Position numbers and translations under genes: made by a program. A stretch of 62,405 bases of DNA from Methylobacter luteus IMV-B-3098 (GTDB taxonomy: Bacteria > Pseudomonadota > Gammaproteobacteria > Methylococcales > Methylomonadaceae), in assembly GCF_000427625.1 (NCBI RefSeq), contig NZ_KE386569.1:3404156-3466560 (forward strand), given 5' to 3'. This document shows positions 4,921 to 62,405 of this stretch, piece after piece (within the stretch, counting starts at the first letter, position 1; each line of letters begins with the position of its first letter). The notes beneath the pieces were generated by a model. The model was not told the origin of the DNA. It did not search any database and worked only from the letters and a program-made list of their open reading frames with translations.

Positions 4921-5497
4921 AAACCCCTCCCTAATAGAAAGATAAATTTTAGAAAGATAAATTTCGTGCTAAGAATCACTTAATTGGAGTTTTTGGCAGT
5001 TCAAATACTAGATAGTTGAGCCCTTGAAAAAGCTAAAGGTTCAATTCGATATCGAGTTAAATTATTAATTGAGGACTTTTTAAGAGCGATCTGAGAGTTC
5101 TCTGAGAAATGCCGACAAAAGCTGTAAAAGAGGGGTTACCAAGGCTGTTCAGACCTGACCTCCTGCGGGGTAGATTAACCAAGAGGTACATGCCTGCCTG
5201 AGATCTGCGAAAGCAATATAGGTGAGTCGATGCCGCGACAAGCCCTGAGTATTTGTTAGTGATCCCAAGCGCATCCGTGGGCTCGAAACCAAACCGGTGA
5301 ACATTAAAATGCTGGGGTCGGACTATTCGTAGCCCGCAGGTGCATGTCCTGATTTACTGGCAGCTACCTGCCAGCTGTGCTGCGTATCACTTAAAACAGG
5401 ACGGAAGGACTATATTGAGTCGAATTCAGCCAGTCAATATCAGATTCAATTCCGATTAATATTTAAAGCCGCCAGATCAAGTCCAGAGTCTTAAGCT
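4921..5497. other. Gene-free stretch, possibly a structured RNA remnant
   Basis: There is no open frame of note over 577 bases. The part from about 5150 to 5400 has the look of structured RNA, with many short G/C-rich self-complementary segments (CTGGCAGCTACCTGCCAG near 5361 is one clear hairpin) and a GAAA-type loop near 5208. A decayed group II intron 5' end is one possibility, but I could not identify domain V or a reverse transcriptase, so I leave it unassigned. Confidence 0.25.
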
Positions 5498-6502
5498 TTA
5501 ATGTACTGGCTGGTTATCAATTTTGTAAACAGACAAAAATCCGCCCCAATGGCTCTGGTAAACCAGGCTGACACCTTCGGGCAATTTCTTTAGCGAATCG
5601 ATAAAAGGCAGCAACCTCACCAATAGAGTGTTTTTGGCTTTCGCATCGGGCGTGGACCAGACGCGGTAATAGTTGCCTTCTTTCTGCGCCAGATAATTGC
5701 CGTCGCCTGCTTCGAAAGCCCAGCGCTTGACCAGGGCAATATCCCCGTGCAGATCATTGCCTGCCGGGATGTTTTTCGAATCGAGCGACAGGGACGTGCC
5801 GCCGTAAGCCGCGAACTCGGCCAGATGCAGCAGCAGATCATTATTGACCAGCAGATAGACGGGCCGCGACACGCCAAAATGCGCGGCGATCTCGGACAGG
5901 GCTTTTTCGCTGTCCATGGTCAGCCAGCGCGCCATTTGTGTCAAACGCGCGCGTTCCTCGTCCGATGCTGCCGGCAGGCTGTCCTGTAGGGCTTTCCATA
6001 CCGGACCGGCAAAGGTTTTATCGGAAGGCTTGCACAGCCAGGCTTCCTTGCCGCTCAGATAATGAATGCGCTGACCGTCGTCCCACCAGCTCAGGAACAG
6101 GGCATCTTCCGGCGCCTTGCGGGCAATGATGTCGGCTGCCGATTGCCAGATATCATGACGCAACCCGGTCGGACTGGAAGCAATCTCCTGCGCGTCCTTC
6201 GGAAACAGGACCGCGCCCTGTGGCAGGCCGGTACTATCCTGATACCGGGCCACCAGCAGGCTGAACAAATCCTTGCCTTCCTGGCTGAAGGCATAGCGTT
6301 CGACCGACTGTGCAGGGAAACGGCCCTGCACATCGGCTTTCGGTTCCGGCGCATGGCGGACGCTGAGCTGATCACCGCTTTTCGCGCCATCCGCCTTAAC
6401 GGCGGGCGAGGGCAGCAGTTGCCGGTACAGTATCGTGCCGCCTGTCGCCAGCAGCACAATACTGATCACCATAAGCAGCCCTTGTCTTATTTTACGGGAC
6501 AT
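5498..6502 (-). CDS. haoB: Hydroxylamine oxidation protein HaoB
   Basis: This 334-residue protein has an N-terminal membrane anchor (residues 8-30: GLLMVISIVLLATGGTILY) and a large periplasmic part. It follows haoA, and its ATG at 6502 shares one base with the haoA stop (TGATG), so the two are translationally coupled. Position and size match HaoB of ammonia and methane oxidisers, a protein of unclear biochemical role always found with HaoA. A GTG one codon upstream is a possible alternative start. The C-terminal half contains HFGVSRPVYLLVNNDLLLHL and a WSTPDAKAKNTLLVRLLPF segment. No haem motif is present. Confidence 0.8.
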   Translation of the reverse strand: MSRKIRQGLLMVISIVLLATGGTILYRQLLPSPAVKADGAKSGDQLSVRHAPEPKADVQGRFPAQSVERYAFSQEGKDLFSLLVARYQDSTGLPQGAVLFPKDAQEIASSPTGLRHDIWQSAADIIARKAPEDALFLSWWDDGQRIHYLSGKEAWLCKPSDKTFAGPVWKALQDSLPAASDEERARLTQMARWLTMDSEKALSEIAAHFGVSRPVYLLVNNDLLLHLAEFAAYGGTSLSLDSKNIPAGNDLHGDIALVKRWAFEAGDGNYLAQKEGNYYRVWSTPDAKAKNTLLVRLLPFIDSLKKLPEGVSLVYQSHWGGFLSVYKIDNQPVH

Positions 6503-53987: not shown

Positions 53988-54096
53988 CAGGTTCCCCTTC
54001 GGAATAAAGTCATCATTTATGGTAGCCTTTATAGTTATTGGTCGGCTACTTAACAGTCGAATTCTACTCTAATTAACAAGCTTAAGCGAGGCAACG

Positions 54097-54729
54097 ATGA
54101 ATCCCATTTATCATCAGGCAAAATTTATCAACAGCTCGCCGCATATCCGCAATGCGCCTGCCGATCAGGGCCTGGAAGTGGCCTTTGCAGGGCGCTCCAA
54201 TGCGGGGAAGTCGAGCGCGATCAATACTCTGACGCGACAAAACGCATTGGCCCGGATCAGTAAAACGCCGGGCAGAACGCAGATGCTCAATTTTTTCGAA
54301 ATCAATGCCGAGCTGCGTTTCGTCGACTTGCCCGGTTACGGTTATGCCAAAGTGCCGGTGGACGTGAAGAAAAAGTGGCATGAGCTGATGGAACATTATT
54401 TGACGCACCGCAAGTCATTGTGCGGCATCATTCTGGTTATGGACGTGCGTCATCCCTTGACCGAATTCGATTGGCAGATGGTCGAATGGTGCCAGCATGC
54501 CGGCCTGCCGCTGCATATCTTGCTGACCAAAGCCGACAAACTGACTTACGGTGCCGCTAAAAATACGCTGCTGCAGGTCAAGAGAGAGCTTAAGGATATC
54601 AGTTGTCCGCTGACGATACAGCTGTTCTCATCCTTGAAGAAAACCGGCATCGATGAAGTGCATGAGGCGCTGGACAATCTGTTCAGACGCGCGGAACCCG
54701 ATCAAAGCGAGATTTCAATGCCTTCCTGA
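54097..54729 (+). CDS. engB: Ribosome biogenesis GTPase EngB (YihA/YsxC)
   Basis: This 210-residue GTPase helps assemble the 50S ribosomal subunit. G1 is FAGRSNAGKSSAINTL (about 30-45), G3 is DLPGYGYAKVP, and G4 is LTKADKLTYG. GAGG precedes the ATG. It is convergent with polA, an order shared by enterics and pseudomonads. The gap between holds the candidate small RNA. Confidence 0.95.
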   Translation: MNPIYHQAKFINSSPHIRNAPADQGLEVAFAGRSNAGKSSAINTLTRQNALARISKTPGRTQMLNFFEINAELRFVDLPGYGYAKVPVDVKKKWHELMEHYLTHRKSLCGIILVMDVRHPLTEFDWQMVEWCQHAGLPLHILLTKADKLTYGAAKNTLLQVKRELKDISCPLTIQLFSSLKKTGIDEVHEALDNLFRRAEPDQSEISMPS

Positions 54730-54800
54730 GCCAATAATAACCCGAAGCCGGTATCGGAGGTGAACCGCAACACTTTCTGCCCGATTTGCGGACCGGCGTT

Positions 54801-54840
54801 AAAAAGAAAGCCCCAAATGCACATAAGCATGTTGGGGCTT
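54801..54840 (-). terminator. Rho-independent terminator downstream of polA
   Basis: On the minus strand AAGCCCCAA (54840-54832) pairs with TTGGGGCTT (54816-54808) around a 15-base loop, followed by TCTTTTT. It ends polA transcription or, more likely, the small RNA proposed between them. Confidence 0.85.
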
Positions 54841-54909
54841 GAAAGAAAAATCAGCCAATAATAAAGGGGGGGATTGGACTGATTCGACGCCGTTTTAAGG
54901 CGTACGTCA
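54801..54909 (-). ncRNA. Candidate Spot 42/ErsA-position small RNA with C7 loop
   Basis: The region lies on the minus strand between polA and engB, where Spot 42 (enterics) and ErsA (pseudomonads) are found. Right after the polA stop is a promoter-like pair: TTGAGT (54944-54939) and TATACG (54921-54916) with a 17-base spacer. Transcription from about 54909 to the terminator gives about 109 nt. Visible folds are ACGCC/GGCGT, and CCAAT/ATTGG closing a loop that exposes seven C, followed by a U-rich stretch and the terminator hairpin. A C-rich loop is a typical seed against Shine-Dalgarno sites. No sequence match to known RNAs was tested. Confidence 0.5.
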
Positions 54910-54915
54910 CTAAGA

Positions 54916-54944
54916 CGTATATGAAAATGAAAAGTTCCACTCAA
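54916..54944 (-). promoter_or_regulatory. Sigma70-like promoter for the candidate small RNA
   Basis: TTGAGT and TATACG match the -35 (TTGACA) and -10 (TATAAT) hexamers at four positions each, with the ideal 17-base spacing. It begins ten bases after the polA stop codon. Confidence 0.5.
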
Positions 54945-54954
54945 ATTAAATTTA

Positions 54955-57666
54955 TTAATGCGCCTCGTCCCAATTGTTGCCAATACCGATATCGACAACC
55001 AGTGGCACGTTGAGATCGGCGGCTGAGCACATCAGTTTCCTAATGCCGGACGTGCAGAGGTCCAGTTGATCTTCGGCGACTTCAAAAACCAGCTCATCAT
55101 GTACCTGCATGATCATCTTGGCGTCGGGCTTTTGCTGTTGCAGCCATTGATCGGTGAAGATCATCGCGCGCTTGATGATGTCTGCGGCCGTGCCCTGCAT
55201 CGGCGCATTGATGGCCGTGCGTTCGGCATACTGGCGGCGCGCCGCGTTGCGCGATTTGATTTCGGGCAGATACAGGCGGCGGCTGAACAGGGTTTCCACG
55301 TAACCCTGTTCCCGTGCCAGCGCGCGGATGTTGTCCATGTAATCCCTGACGCCCGGATAACGGGCAAAGTACAAGTCGATATAGGACTGCGCCTGGTTGC
55401 GCGACAAGCCGAGCTGCTGCGCCAGCCCGAACGAGGACATGCCGTAAATGAGCCCGAAATTGATCGCTTTGGCCGAGCGGCGCAGGTCGGGGGTGACCTG
55501 GTCGGGCGCTACGCCGAACACGTCGGCCGCGGTCGCGCGGTGCACGTCCTCGCCGGCGCTGAAGGCTTTCAGCAGGCCGGCGTCATTGGACAAGTGCGCC
55601 ATGATGCGCAACTCGATCTGCGAGTAATCGGCTGCGACGATGTTATAGCCTTTCGGCGCGATAAACGCCTGACGGATTTTGCGGCCTTCATCGCTGCGTA
55701 TCGGGATGTTCTGCAGATTGGGGTCCGAGGACGACAGCCGGCCTGTCGCGGTCACGGCCTGATGATAGGATGTATGGATGCGGCCGGTTTTATCGTCGAC
55801 CTGTTGCGGCAGTTTGTCGGTATAGGTCGATTTGAGCTTGCTGAGGCTGCGGTATTCGAGAATCAGCTTGGGCAGCGGGTAGTCCAGGGCCAGTTCCTGC
55901 AGCACCGATTCTTCGGTGGACGGCTGGCCTTTCGGCGTTTTCTTCAGCACGGGCAATTTCTGGCGATCATAGAGGATGTTCTGGATTTGCTGCGGCGAGC
56001 CGAGATTGAACGTTTGTCCTGCCAGGTCGTGGGCACGCTGCTCCAGCGCTACCATATGACTGGCCAGTTCCAGGCTGTGCTGCGCCAGCATGGCGGTGTC
56101 GATCAGCACGCCGTTGCGCTCGATGCGCGCCAGCACGCTGATCAGCGGGATTTCGACATGCGAGTATAGATTCATCAACGCCTTGTTCGGAGCAAGTTTT
56201 GCCATGAGCACCTGATGCAGTTTCAGCGTAATGTCGGCATCTTCGGCCGCATACGGCGTGGCCTGTTCCAGCGGCACTTCCTGAAACGGAATCTGTTTCG
56301 CGCCCTTGCCGGCCACATCCTCGTAATGAATCGTGTCTACACTTAAGTATTCCTTGGCCAGATCGTCCATATTGTGTTTCGTGGCCGTGCTGTTCAGCAC
56401 GTACGATTCCAGCATCGTGTCATGGGCGATGCCGCGCAGTGTGATGCCGTGGTTGGCCAGCACATGCATATCATATTTCAGGTTCTGGCCCAATTTGGCT
56501 TTATGCGGGTCTTCCAGCAACGGACGCAGGCGTTCCAGAATGTCGGTTCTGTCCAGCTGATCGGGTACACCGGGATAGTCGTGTGCCAGCGGCACATAAG
56601 CGGCGTGGCCTGGCGTGACGACGAAGGAGACGCCGACGATTTCGGCCTGGCTGTAGTCCAGGCTGGTGGTTTCGGTGTCAAAGGCGAACAGCGGCGCCTG
56701 ATCGAGCTGCTCAAACCATTGATTGAACTGCTCTTCGGTAAGAACGGTTTCATAAACCGCTTCCGGTGCGGCCTCTTTCTCTTCAGGCGTATCCAGGGCC
56801 TCGGGTTGGCTGTCGAGCATTTTCAGCCACGATGAAAAGCCGAGCCCGGTCAGCAGATTTCTGAGTTCGGCTTTGTCCGCGGGCCGGCGTTTCAGGTCTT
56901 CCAGATGGTATGGCAGGTCCAGATCGCATTTGATCGTCGTAAGCTGCTTCGATAACGGCAGCTGATCCAGGCTGGCGCGCAGGTTCTCGCCGATCTTGCC
57001 CTTGATCTGATCGGCACAGGCGATCAGGTTTTCCAGTGTTTCGTACTCTTCCAGCCATTTGGCCGCCGTTTTGGGGCCGACTTTGGGCACGCCGGGGATG
57101 TTGTCGACGGTATCGCCGATCAGAGCCAGATAATCGACGATCTGCTCAGGCCTTACGCCGAACTTGTCGATGACGCCCTGAATGTCAAGCCGTACATTAG
57201 ACATGGTGTTGTCCAGAGTGATGTGCTCGGTCACCAGTTGGGCCATGTCCTTGTCGCCGGTCGAGATCACCACATGAAATCCTTGCCGCTCGGCCTGTTG
57301 CGCCAGGGCGCCCATGATGTCATCGGCTTCCACGCCGTTTTCGATGATCAACGGCAGGCCCATGGCGCGGATCAGCTGATGCAGCGGCTCGATCTGTATG
57401 CGTAGATCGTCGGGCATGGGCGGCCTGTGCGCTTTGTATTGGTCGTAAAGGTCATTGCGGAAGGTTTTGCCCGGCGCATCAAAAATGACCGTGATGTAGT
57501 CGCTTTGGTAATCGTCGATCAGTTTGCGCAGCATGTTCGAAACGCCGAGGATCGCATTGGTCGGTTCGCCTTTCGCATTAGTTAGCGGCGGAAGGGCATG
57601 GTAGGCACGGAACAGGAACGAGGAACCATCGACGAGGATCAGGCGTTTTTGTGTGTCTTGGGGCAT
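54955..57666 (-). CDS. polA: DNA polymerase I
   Basis: This 903-residue enzyme fills gaps and removes RNA primers. Domains: 5'-3' exonuclease (1-290; LILVDGSSFLFRAYHAL, VEADDIMGALA), 3'-5' exonuclease (about 310-490; LFAFDTETTSLDYSQAEIVG keeps the D-x-E pair) and polymerase (500-903; ADYSQIELRIMAHLS, RRSAKAINFGLIYGMS, QVHDELVFEV). All three look active. relA lies 65 bases upstream in the same direction. Confidence 0.96.
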   Translation of the reverse strand: MPQDTQKRLILVDGSSFLFRAYHALPPLTNAKGEPTNAILGVSNMLRKLIDDYQSDYITVIFDAPGKTFRNDLYDQYKAHRPPMPDDLRIQIEPLHQLIRAMGLPLIIENGVEADDIMGALAQQAERQGFHVVISTGDKDMAQLVTEHITLDNTMSNVRLDIQGVIDKFGVRPEQIVDYLALIGDTVDNIPGVPKVGPKTAAKWLEEYETLENLIACADQIKGKIGENLRASLDQLPLSKQLTTIKCDLDLPYHLEDLKRRPADKAELRNLLTGLGFSSWLKMLDSQPEALDTPEEKEAAPEAVYETVLTEEQFNQWFEQLDQAPLFAFDTETTSLDYSQAEIVGVSFVVTPGHAAYVPLAHDYPGVPDQLDRTDILERLRPLLEDPHKAKLGQNLKYDMHVLANHGITLRGIAHDTMLESYVLNSTATKHNMDDLAKEYLSVDTIHYEDVAGKGAKQIPFQEVPLEQATPYAAEDADITLKLHQVLMAKLAPNKALMNLYSHVEIPLISVLARIERNGVLIDTAMLAQHSLELASHMVALEQRAHDLAGQTFNLGSPQQIQNILYDRQKLPVLKKTPKGQPSTEESVLQELALDYPLPKLILEYRSLSKLKSTYTDKLPQQVDDKTGRIHTSYHQAVTATGRLSSSDPNLQNIPIRSDEGRKIRQAFIAPKGYNIVAADYSQIELRIMAHLSNDAGLLKAFSAGEDVHRATAADVFGVAPDQVTPDLRRSAKAINFGLIYGMSSFGLAQQLGLSRNQAQSYIDLYFARYPGVRDYMDNIRALAREQGYVETLFSRRLYLPEIKSRNAARRQYAERTAINAPMQGTAADIIKRAMIFTDQWLQQQKPDAKMIMQVHDELVFEVAEDQLDLCTSGIRKLMCSAADLNVPLVVDIGIGNNWDEAH

Positions 57667-61899: not shown

Positions 61900-62405
61900 G
61901 AGCAATTATCTTTTAGATAAAAACATGATATAAACTAACCTCTTGTTAAACGAAATGAGCCATTTTTATCATGCCCAAGCCTTATTCCGAAGATTTACGC
62001 AGCCGGGTGGCTGAAGCGGTTGCCGCAGGCCACACCGTGCGGGCCGTGGCTTTACAATACAAAGTCAGTCCGGCCTTTGTCTGCCGAATGCACGCCTTGT
62101 GGCGTGAAACCGGAGCCGTTCAAGGCAAGCCCTTTGGCGGCTACAGACGCTCGCGGCTGGAACCTTATGAAGCCGCCATCAAGGAACAGTTAGCGAGTAG
62201 TCCGTCGATGACCTTGCAGGAACTGCAGGCTTGGCTGGGACGCGAACACAGCCTAAGTGTTTCGATCTCGGCCATTGATAAGTTTATTAGGCGCAAGCTG
62301 GGCTATCGCTATAAAAAAAACGCTGGTCGCCAGTGAGCAGCAACGCGCAGATGTCGCGATGGCCCGAGAGCAATGGCAAGCCTGGCAGCAAACCTGCGAT
62401 CTGTC
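61900..62405 (+). mobile_element. Second IS630-family copy, cut by window end
   Basis: The left terminal repeat GAGCAATTATCTTTTAG starts at 61900, right after TA (61898-61899), the expected target. It matches the ends of the element at 1014-2049. The right end is beyond the window. Confidence 0.8.
61971..62405 (+). pseudogene. IS630 transposase with +1 frameshift in an A8 run (partial)
   Basis: The first 118 residues (MPKPYSEDLRSRVAEAVAAG on) are close to the copy at 1027-1974 but clearly a different subtype. At the YKK codons the run has eight A (62313-62320) against seven in the first copy. This shifts the frame to NAGRQ and a stop at 62336. The other frame then continues TLVASEQQRADVAMAREQW to the window end. 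Either the gene is broken or slippage on the A run yields the full protein, as in some IS630 members. Confidence 0.75.

Follow-up and report, generated by a model that had tools for sequence, protein, structure and literature searches.

Does the gap between polA and engB in the window, as we call the whole 62,405-nt stretch of DNA analysed here, hold a gene of its own, and if so, what would switch it on and to which known RNAs is it related? The initial annotation had placed in this gap a small RNA gene of its own whose product exposes a C-loop. That proposal holds up well, and the RNA is kept in many Methylomonadaceae. We put at roughly 0.7 the probability that a gene in its own right lies here, encoding a trans-acting small RNA of about 106 nt that is transcribed with RpoE upon envelope stress and whose C-loop pairs with G-rich ribosome-binding sites. 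Here and below, we infer that the RNA is transcribed, that it depends on sigma-E in vivo, that it pairs and what it targets.

We read the polA-engB gap on both strands and found the stem CCAAT/ATTGG, the run CCCCCCC (54872-54866) and the terminator (54840-54801), so that both the strong minus-strand terminator and the stem with its exposed cytosines described earlier are confirmed. The features of the locus are as follows.

54097-54729, plus strand: engB (YihA/EngB GTPase), from the list of open reading frames, convergent with the small RNA; we assigned the name from a presumed protein likeness.
54801-54906, minus strand: the small RNA, about 106 nt, from the fold, the covariation and the matches of covariance model R1.
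54801-54840, minus strand: intrinsic terminator, AAGCCCCAA...UUGGGGCUU followed by a U-rich tail, from the fold and the covariation.
54841-54848, minus strand: linker UUUCUUUC, single-stranded in the fold, a possible Hfq site.
54849-54884, minus strand: hairpin 2, AAUCAGUCCAAU / AUUGGCUGAUU, which bears the C-rich loop, from the fold and the covariation.
54866-54872, minus strand: the CCCCCCC loop, proposed from the sequence as the pairing site for G-rich mRNA.
54885-54906, minus strand: hairpin 1, ACGCC-UUAAAAC-GGCGU, from the fold and the covariation.
54911-54915, minus strand: -10 element TCTTA, 16 nt from GAACTT, a spacing kept in the alignment.
54932-54938, minus strand: -35 element GGAACTT, with AACT invariant in 33 aligned sequences.
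54955-57666, minus strand: polA (DNA polymerase I), from the list of open reading frames and PolA searches.

The polA stop codon occupies 54955-54957, and 16 nt separate it from the promoter. The start of the small RNA, placed by the position of the -10 element, would lie at about 54906, only a few bases from the 54909 given earlier. The layout is two hairpins and a terminator, that is, three stems with a C-rich loop on one of them (hairpin 2). The 114-nt stretch 54801-54914 folds at -37.6 kcal/mol, against -20.1 +/- 3.0 in shuffles (n=200); the z-score is -5.77, and none of the 200 shuffles is as low. Elsewhere in the window, near its far end, an open reading frame at 61971-62336 resembles what we take to be the N-terminal part of an IS630-like transposase.

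The promoter is where the initial annotation needs changing. It had proposed TTGAGT-17-TATACG, and those hexamers are present (54944-54939 and 54921-54916, 17 nt apart), but they do not appear to be the promoter. That a sigma-70 small RNA acting on C1 or carbon-storage genes starts from them is very improbable, in spite of the 17-nt spacer, since neither hexamer recurs in three congeners (L013, L014, L015), where GGAACTT-N16-TC is kept, since GAACTT-N16/17-TC is kept instead in the alignment, and since a consensus scan for sigma-70-like sites in 54000-56000 came up empty. Across the aligned rows [GA]AACTT occurs in 32 of 33, AACT is invariant, and the spacer from the -35 element to TC is 16 or 17 nt in all 33. 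A 16-nt spacer is also found upstream of rpoE and rpoH of the same genome. GAACTT-N16-TCTRA is the textbook form of a sigma-E/AlgU promoter. The RpoE of this genome scores 306 bits against TIGR02939 (NCBIfam; cut-off 236), an open reading frame that we presume to be RseA-like follows rpoE, and GAACTT-N16-TCTAT starts 48 nt upstream of the first listed rpoE start codon. The strict pattern GGAACTT-N16-TCTNA has three matches in the 5.0 Mb of the genome: at the small RNA, upstream of a gene that we take to be RpoH-like following a presumably FtsX-like open reading frame (L365), and at a place with no clear gene (L367). A reversed control gives four matches against these three, so the count shows no enrichment and the promoter argument rests on which genes are matched, not on how many. 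The promoter of the small RNA appears to be of the RpoE (sigma-E) type, and the gene would depend on sigma-E in vivo.

If the small RNA is a gene, its parts should be recognizable in relatives. Of 61 genomes covered by a DNA search, 12 gave a match to the stretch, the source genome among them; the match in G029, which falls within a different gene-like stretch, was set aside. The end of polA could be placed in 189 of the 201 family genomes, and 80 of the stretches that follow it were retrieved. Twenty-seven of these, together with the window and five copies from the DNA search (four away from polA, one with polA not found), make up the 33-row alignment. Covariation was computed on the unfitted MAFFT alignment A2 for 24 pairs in three helices. 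Standard pairs fill 89.3% of the cells and 18 of the 24 pairs have changed on both sides; none of 500 shuffles reaches any of the five measures used, and helices slid out of register fall to 23.5-55.9% paired. The terminator is paired in 93% of cells, with both-side changes in 9 of 10 pairs, and hairpin 2 in 92%, with such changes in 4 of 9. The weakest helix is hairpin 1, paired in 76% of cells, with both-side changes in 5 of 5 pairs. A C-run of at least four within bases 50-100 is present in 31 of 33 rows. Structure, C-run and terminator are thus kept in relatives, as the initial annotation had anticipated; the promoter that it proposed is not.

Covariance model R1 scores above 40 bits in 56 of the 201 family genomes, with one such match in each, spanning 14 of 29 genera (hand counts); 33 of the 56 genomes supplied training rows, partly selected by promoter, and 23 are new. 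All eight new strong matches with stored loci carry [GA]AACTT-N15-17-TC. Genus g16 (Methylobacter) has no R1 match above 40 bits. We considered weak matches, in Methylobacter and others, as relocated copies and rejected them: among the 20 fetched (18 of R1 under 39 bits and two of model R3 under 27 bits) none carries a sigma-E-type promoter, and they look like plain terminators. At the level of sequence, alignment and model matches establish a predicted small RNA in a single strong copy per genome, with promoter, stems, C-loop and terminator conserved, which moves as a unit.

The inferred start, about 48 nt past the polA stop, and the terminator at the end of the RNA would also suit a 3' untranslated or terminator region of polA that is no trans-acting RNA. 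We regard this as highly unlikely, because R1 copies, although downstream of polA in 37 genomes (same strand, within about 1 kb), are elsewhere in 18 (for example L012 and L093), with polA not found in one (G007; all hand counts), because the relocated copies inspected keep the promoter, and because in one congener (L015, G001) the promoter stands about 970 nt away from polA, with the RNA unit kept behind it. The relocated unit at L012 (1467-1602) stands beside a gene that we take to be of HDOD type, and that at L093 (about 1474-1610) beside one that is presumably LexA-like.

As a trans-acting regulator, the RNA might work as follows. Envelope stress would free RpoE, and RNA polymerase with RpoE would transcribe the small RNA, which would accumulate. 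Hairpin 2 would hold the seven-C loop open, and the loop would mask G-rich stretches at ribosome-binding sites, such that translation of selected mRNAs would stop. Pairing of the C-loop with Shine-Dalgarno-like G-runs is plausible by analogy with sX13, and C-rich loops that recognize ribosome-binding sites are reported as a known device (PMC8383071). When we searched the genome for sites complementary to AAAGGGGGGGATTGG with up to three mismatches, 92 were found against 52 in a reversed control, the 92 counting the gene of the small RNA as well as a 15-mer with eight occurrences. The 29 complementary sites inspected include no convincing ribosome-binding site, and no evidence for C1 or carbon-storage targets emerged. 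The 15-mer, AAAGGGGTGGACCGG, occurs at eight places in the genome, one of them at 3404279 (near window base 124); two copies inspected have the same flank, and it is probably part of a repeated element. Envelope proteins may be considered candidate targets by analogy. Instead of pairing with mRNAs, the C-loop could act as a sponge or decoy that titrates some other RNA or a protein; partners of another kind are conceivable for C-rich loops, and no target came out of the search. We consider this improbable, as sX13, which has a similar design and is the best studied of such RNAs, is reported to repress mRNAs through its C-loops (PMC3771888).

We then have to ask whether the RNA stands alone. Promoters of the same type recur behind polA: in 79 named loci (many of them family members; L185 was omitted from that scan) the first 400 nt past polA contain the loose pattern in 21 cases, against 2.25 expected, and 128 class regions, mostly one per family, contain the strict promoter in 22 cases on the polA strand and three on the opposite strand, with 1.55 expected. 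L247 left this survey, with no polA end found, and G262 and a few other genomes with a PolA match are not among the fetched regions. Many of the RNAs behind these promoters have hairpin loops such as CCUCCC, UCCCCAA and CCCCCC, and there are often three C-loop hairpins when the terminator is counted. On 20 of the wider loci, Rfam returned only sub-threshold matches, to anti-hemB, sX13, Pseudomon-1/ErsA, ar7 and ar14, at the same places. At L246, L280, L300, L312 and others, one RNA group appears to be divided in Rfam among these families, always below threshold.

Model R2 was built from 20 wider-group RNAs with alignment A4, from which hairpin 1 was excluded because the MAFFT alignment that had it (A3) was too ragged. 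L264 was omitted from A4, and the promoter-bearing loci L179, L195, L201, L220, L227, L230, L235, L245, L250 and L257 are in neither alignment. R2 and R3 were both trained without Methylomonadaceae rows; R3 training includes one sX13 locus (L330), and the fair tests of R3 are L398 and L410 only. At E<=0.001 R2 matches 185 of 369 gammaproteobacterial genomes, and covariation is strong in A5 (43 rows, fitted to the model). In 80 named loci R2 has 20 matches at E<=0.05, all on the same strand as polA; three of the 20 are training rows. The strict promoter stands within 140 nt upstream in 28 of 30 loci returned by R3 in the order Methylococcales, and in 25 of 30 class loci returned by R2, where 11 of the 30 are training rows picked by promoter, which leaves 14 of 19 for a fair comparison; the control stretches have it in 2/30 and 3/30. 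L373, whose contig starts 435 nt before the match, was counted as a promoter miss, and L455 has the same coordinates as L187, which is a training row of R2 and not of R3. Since only 10 of the 30 order loci (R3) and 23 of the 30 class loci (R2) are within 700 nt of polA, the promoter precedes model-found RNAs also away from polA, and promoter and RNA belong together there too. In 31 of the 53 genomes with a known place of polA and an R2 match among those listed, which extend to about E 1.4e-7, the best R2 match among those listed is just after polA, and in 22 it is not (hand count). Tandem arrays of four R2-type C-loop RNAs occur at G394:C33:13150-13885 and G501:C8:6558-7475.

Does the window RNA belong to this group? 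R2 has one match in the window at E<=10, at 54803-54910 on the minus strand (16.2 bits, E 0.023), and the best R3 match is at 54803-54880 (18.7 bits, E 0.012), the next having 9.1 bits; the R3 alignment covers hairpin 2 and the terminator and skips the middle C-loop hairpin. Genome-wide, the small RNA of this genome is matched neither by R2 (E<=0.001) nor by R3 (E<=0.1). In 85 family loci, 23 of 24 R2 matches and 26 of 27 R3 matches coincide with the small RNA, while in the 32 family loci bearing it R2 misses nine and R3 six, among others all five Methylotuvimicrobium-group rows (L066-L070). Nine family genomes have a genome-wide R3 match, which is at the small RNA in one (G012) and elsewhere in eight. 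The window RNA has two features of the group, GAACTT-N15-17-TC directly upstream and a C-run at the apex of one or more hairpins, and differs from it in having neither a second C-loop hairpin nor a C-rich terminator loop.

An independent origin, by which a sigma-E small RNA specific to the Methylomonadaceae arose in the polA gap, acquired its C-loop by convergence and is unrelated to ErsA, sX13 and the wider group, must be taken seriously, even if we think it unlikely. It would account for the single C-loop, for cross-family model scores on the small RNA of 11.7 to 28.1 bits, for the lack of anything near in Rfam, and for the R1 results in 369 class genomes, where the best match apart from two family genomes has 37.5 bits, which is background level. 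Place, strand, promoter and spacing all agree with the wider group, however; the small RNA is the best match of both R2 and R3 in the window, and strong R3 matches are found in six other families of the order (f2, f4-f8), although f3, which was matched in the DNA search, has none among those listed. Descent of the window RNA from the wider C-loop group therefore seems likely, and most likely it is a derived, one-C-loop form of a sigma-E-driven, often polA-linked group that includes ErsA and sX13.

On the reading of the locus as an RpoE-driven regulator, the methanotrophs gain a candidate envelope-stress small RNA with a named regulator. The enteric sigma-E small RNAs are MicA, RybB and MicL. 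If the RNAs considered here are one group, several single-lineage stories would become one regulon question, that of sigma-E silencing by way of C-loops outside the enterics.

How, then, does the RNA compare with those already named? An Rfam scan of the whole window gave no matches, and a scan of the gap at E<=10 gave only NsiR1 (18.9 bits) and CRISPR-DR47 (13.9 bits), which are far below the gathering scores and were taken as chance. Spot 42 (RF00021) occupies the same polA-engB gap and was one of two RNAs that the initial annotation had named from it, ErsA being the other; neither model matches at the locus, and RF00021 has no match in window or gap. The promoter of Spot 42 is of a different type from that of the window RNA. 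The true Spot 42 loci L228 and L224 have no R2 match at E<=0.05, and R3 gives 17.8 bits (E 0.17) at Spot 42 in L228, whereas its 15.4-bit match in L224 does not lie at Spot 42. In L224 (Neiella marina), at about 5280-5605, polA is followed by a promoter of sigma-E type and a short stretch that has a terminator of its own, and Spot 42 comes about 200 nt later, so two polA-linked RNAs may coexist there. Three other families, anti-hemB (RF02837), ar7 (RF02342) and ar14 (RF02344), have sub-threshold matches on the wider loci and none on the window RNA at E<=10; C-rich loops are reported for ar14 (PMC10746234) and ar7 (PMC3771888).

ErsA (Pseudomon-1, RF01719) of Pseudomonas is reported from the polA-engB gap, as is the case for the window RNA (PMC8575079). 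The initial annotation had seen no link in primary sequence to a known RNA, but a sigma-E-type promoter right after polA is such a link: at the ErsA locus L410, polA is followed by GAACTT-N17-TC and then the RNA, and ErsA expression is reported to depend on sigma-22 (PMC7565897). ErsA is longer (132 nt, PMC5819304, against about 106 nt) and carries its C-run in the terminator loop rather than in hairpin 2; algC and oprD are among its reported targets (PMC7565897, PMC5819304). RF01719 has no match at E<=10 near the locus and none at E<=0.001 in the genome.

The sX13 RNA of the Xanthomonadaceae (RF02232; 115 nt) is likewise described as lying downstream of polA and having three stems, with three C-rich loops where the window RNA has one; these loops are reported to act on G-rich motifs near translation starts, and repression was found experimentally to require C-motifs as well as G-motifs but to do without Hfq (PMC3771888). 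RF02232 also has no match at E<=10 near the locus or at E<=0.001 in the genome. R2, trained without sX13 or ErsA, nonetheless found sX13 twice (E 4.2e-6 and 5.2e-6) and ErsA once (E 1.4e-5) in a 10-kb test. Two sX13 loci have no AACTT-N15-18-TC upstream; at these loci (L398, L399) TTATAG stands where the -10 element could be and the GAACTT promoter is absent, and a promoter swap is possible.

No description of this RNA was found in the titles and abstract openings of the literature searched. Reviews covering ErsA do not mention sX13 in a search for the term, and the two were not found together in the literature searched, which leaves most subscription papers, the ErsA discovery paper among them, outside. 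We lean towards the view that ErsA, sX13 and the window RNA all branch from a single old family of gammaproteobacterial C-loop RNAs driven by sigma-E, which was ancestrally downstream of polA, occurs in roughly half of the genomes sampled and has so far been treated as a set of separate RNAs, each peculiar to its lineage; the Methylomonadaceae form would be stripped to one C-loop and the xanthomonad promoter seemingly swapped. The authors of the sX13 study noted the polA neighbourhood that Spot 42 and alpha-r7 have, and asked whether other polA loci encode small RNAs (PMC3771888); the sequence evidence gathered here suggests that they do, and widely.
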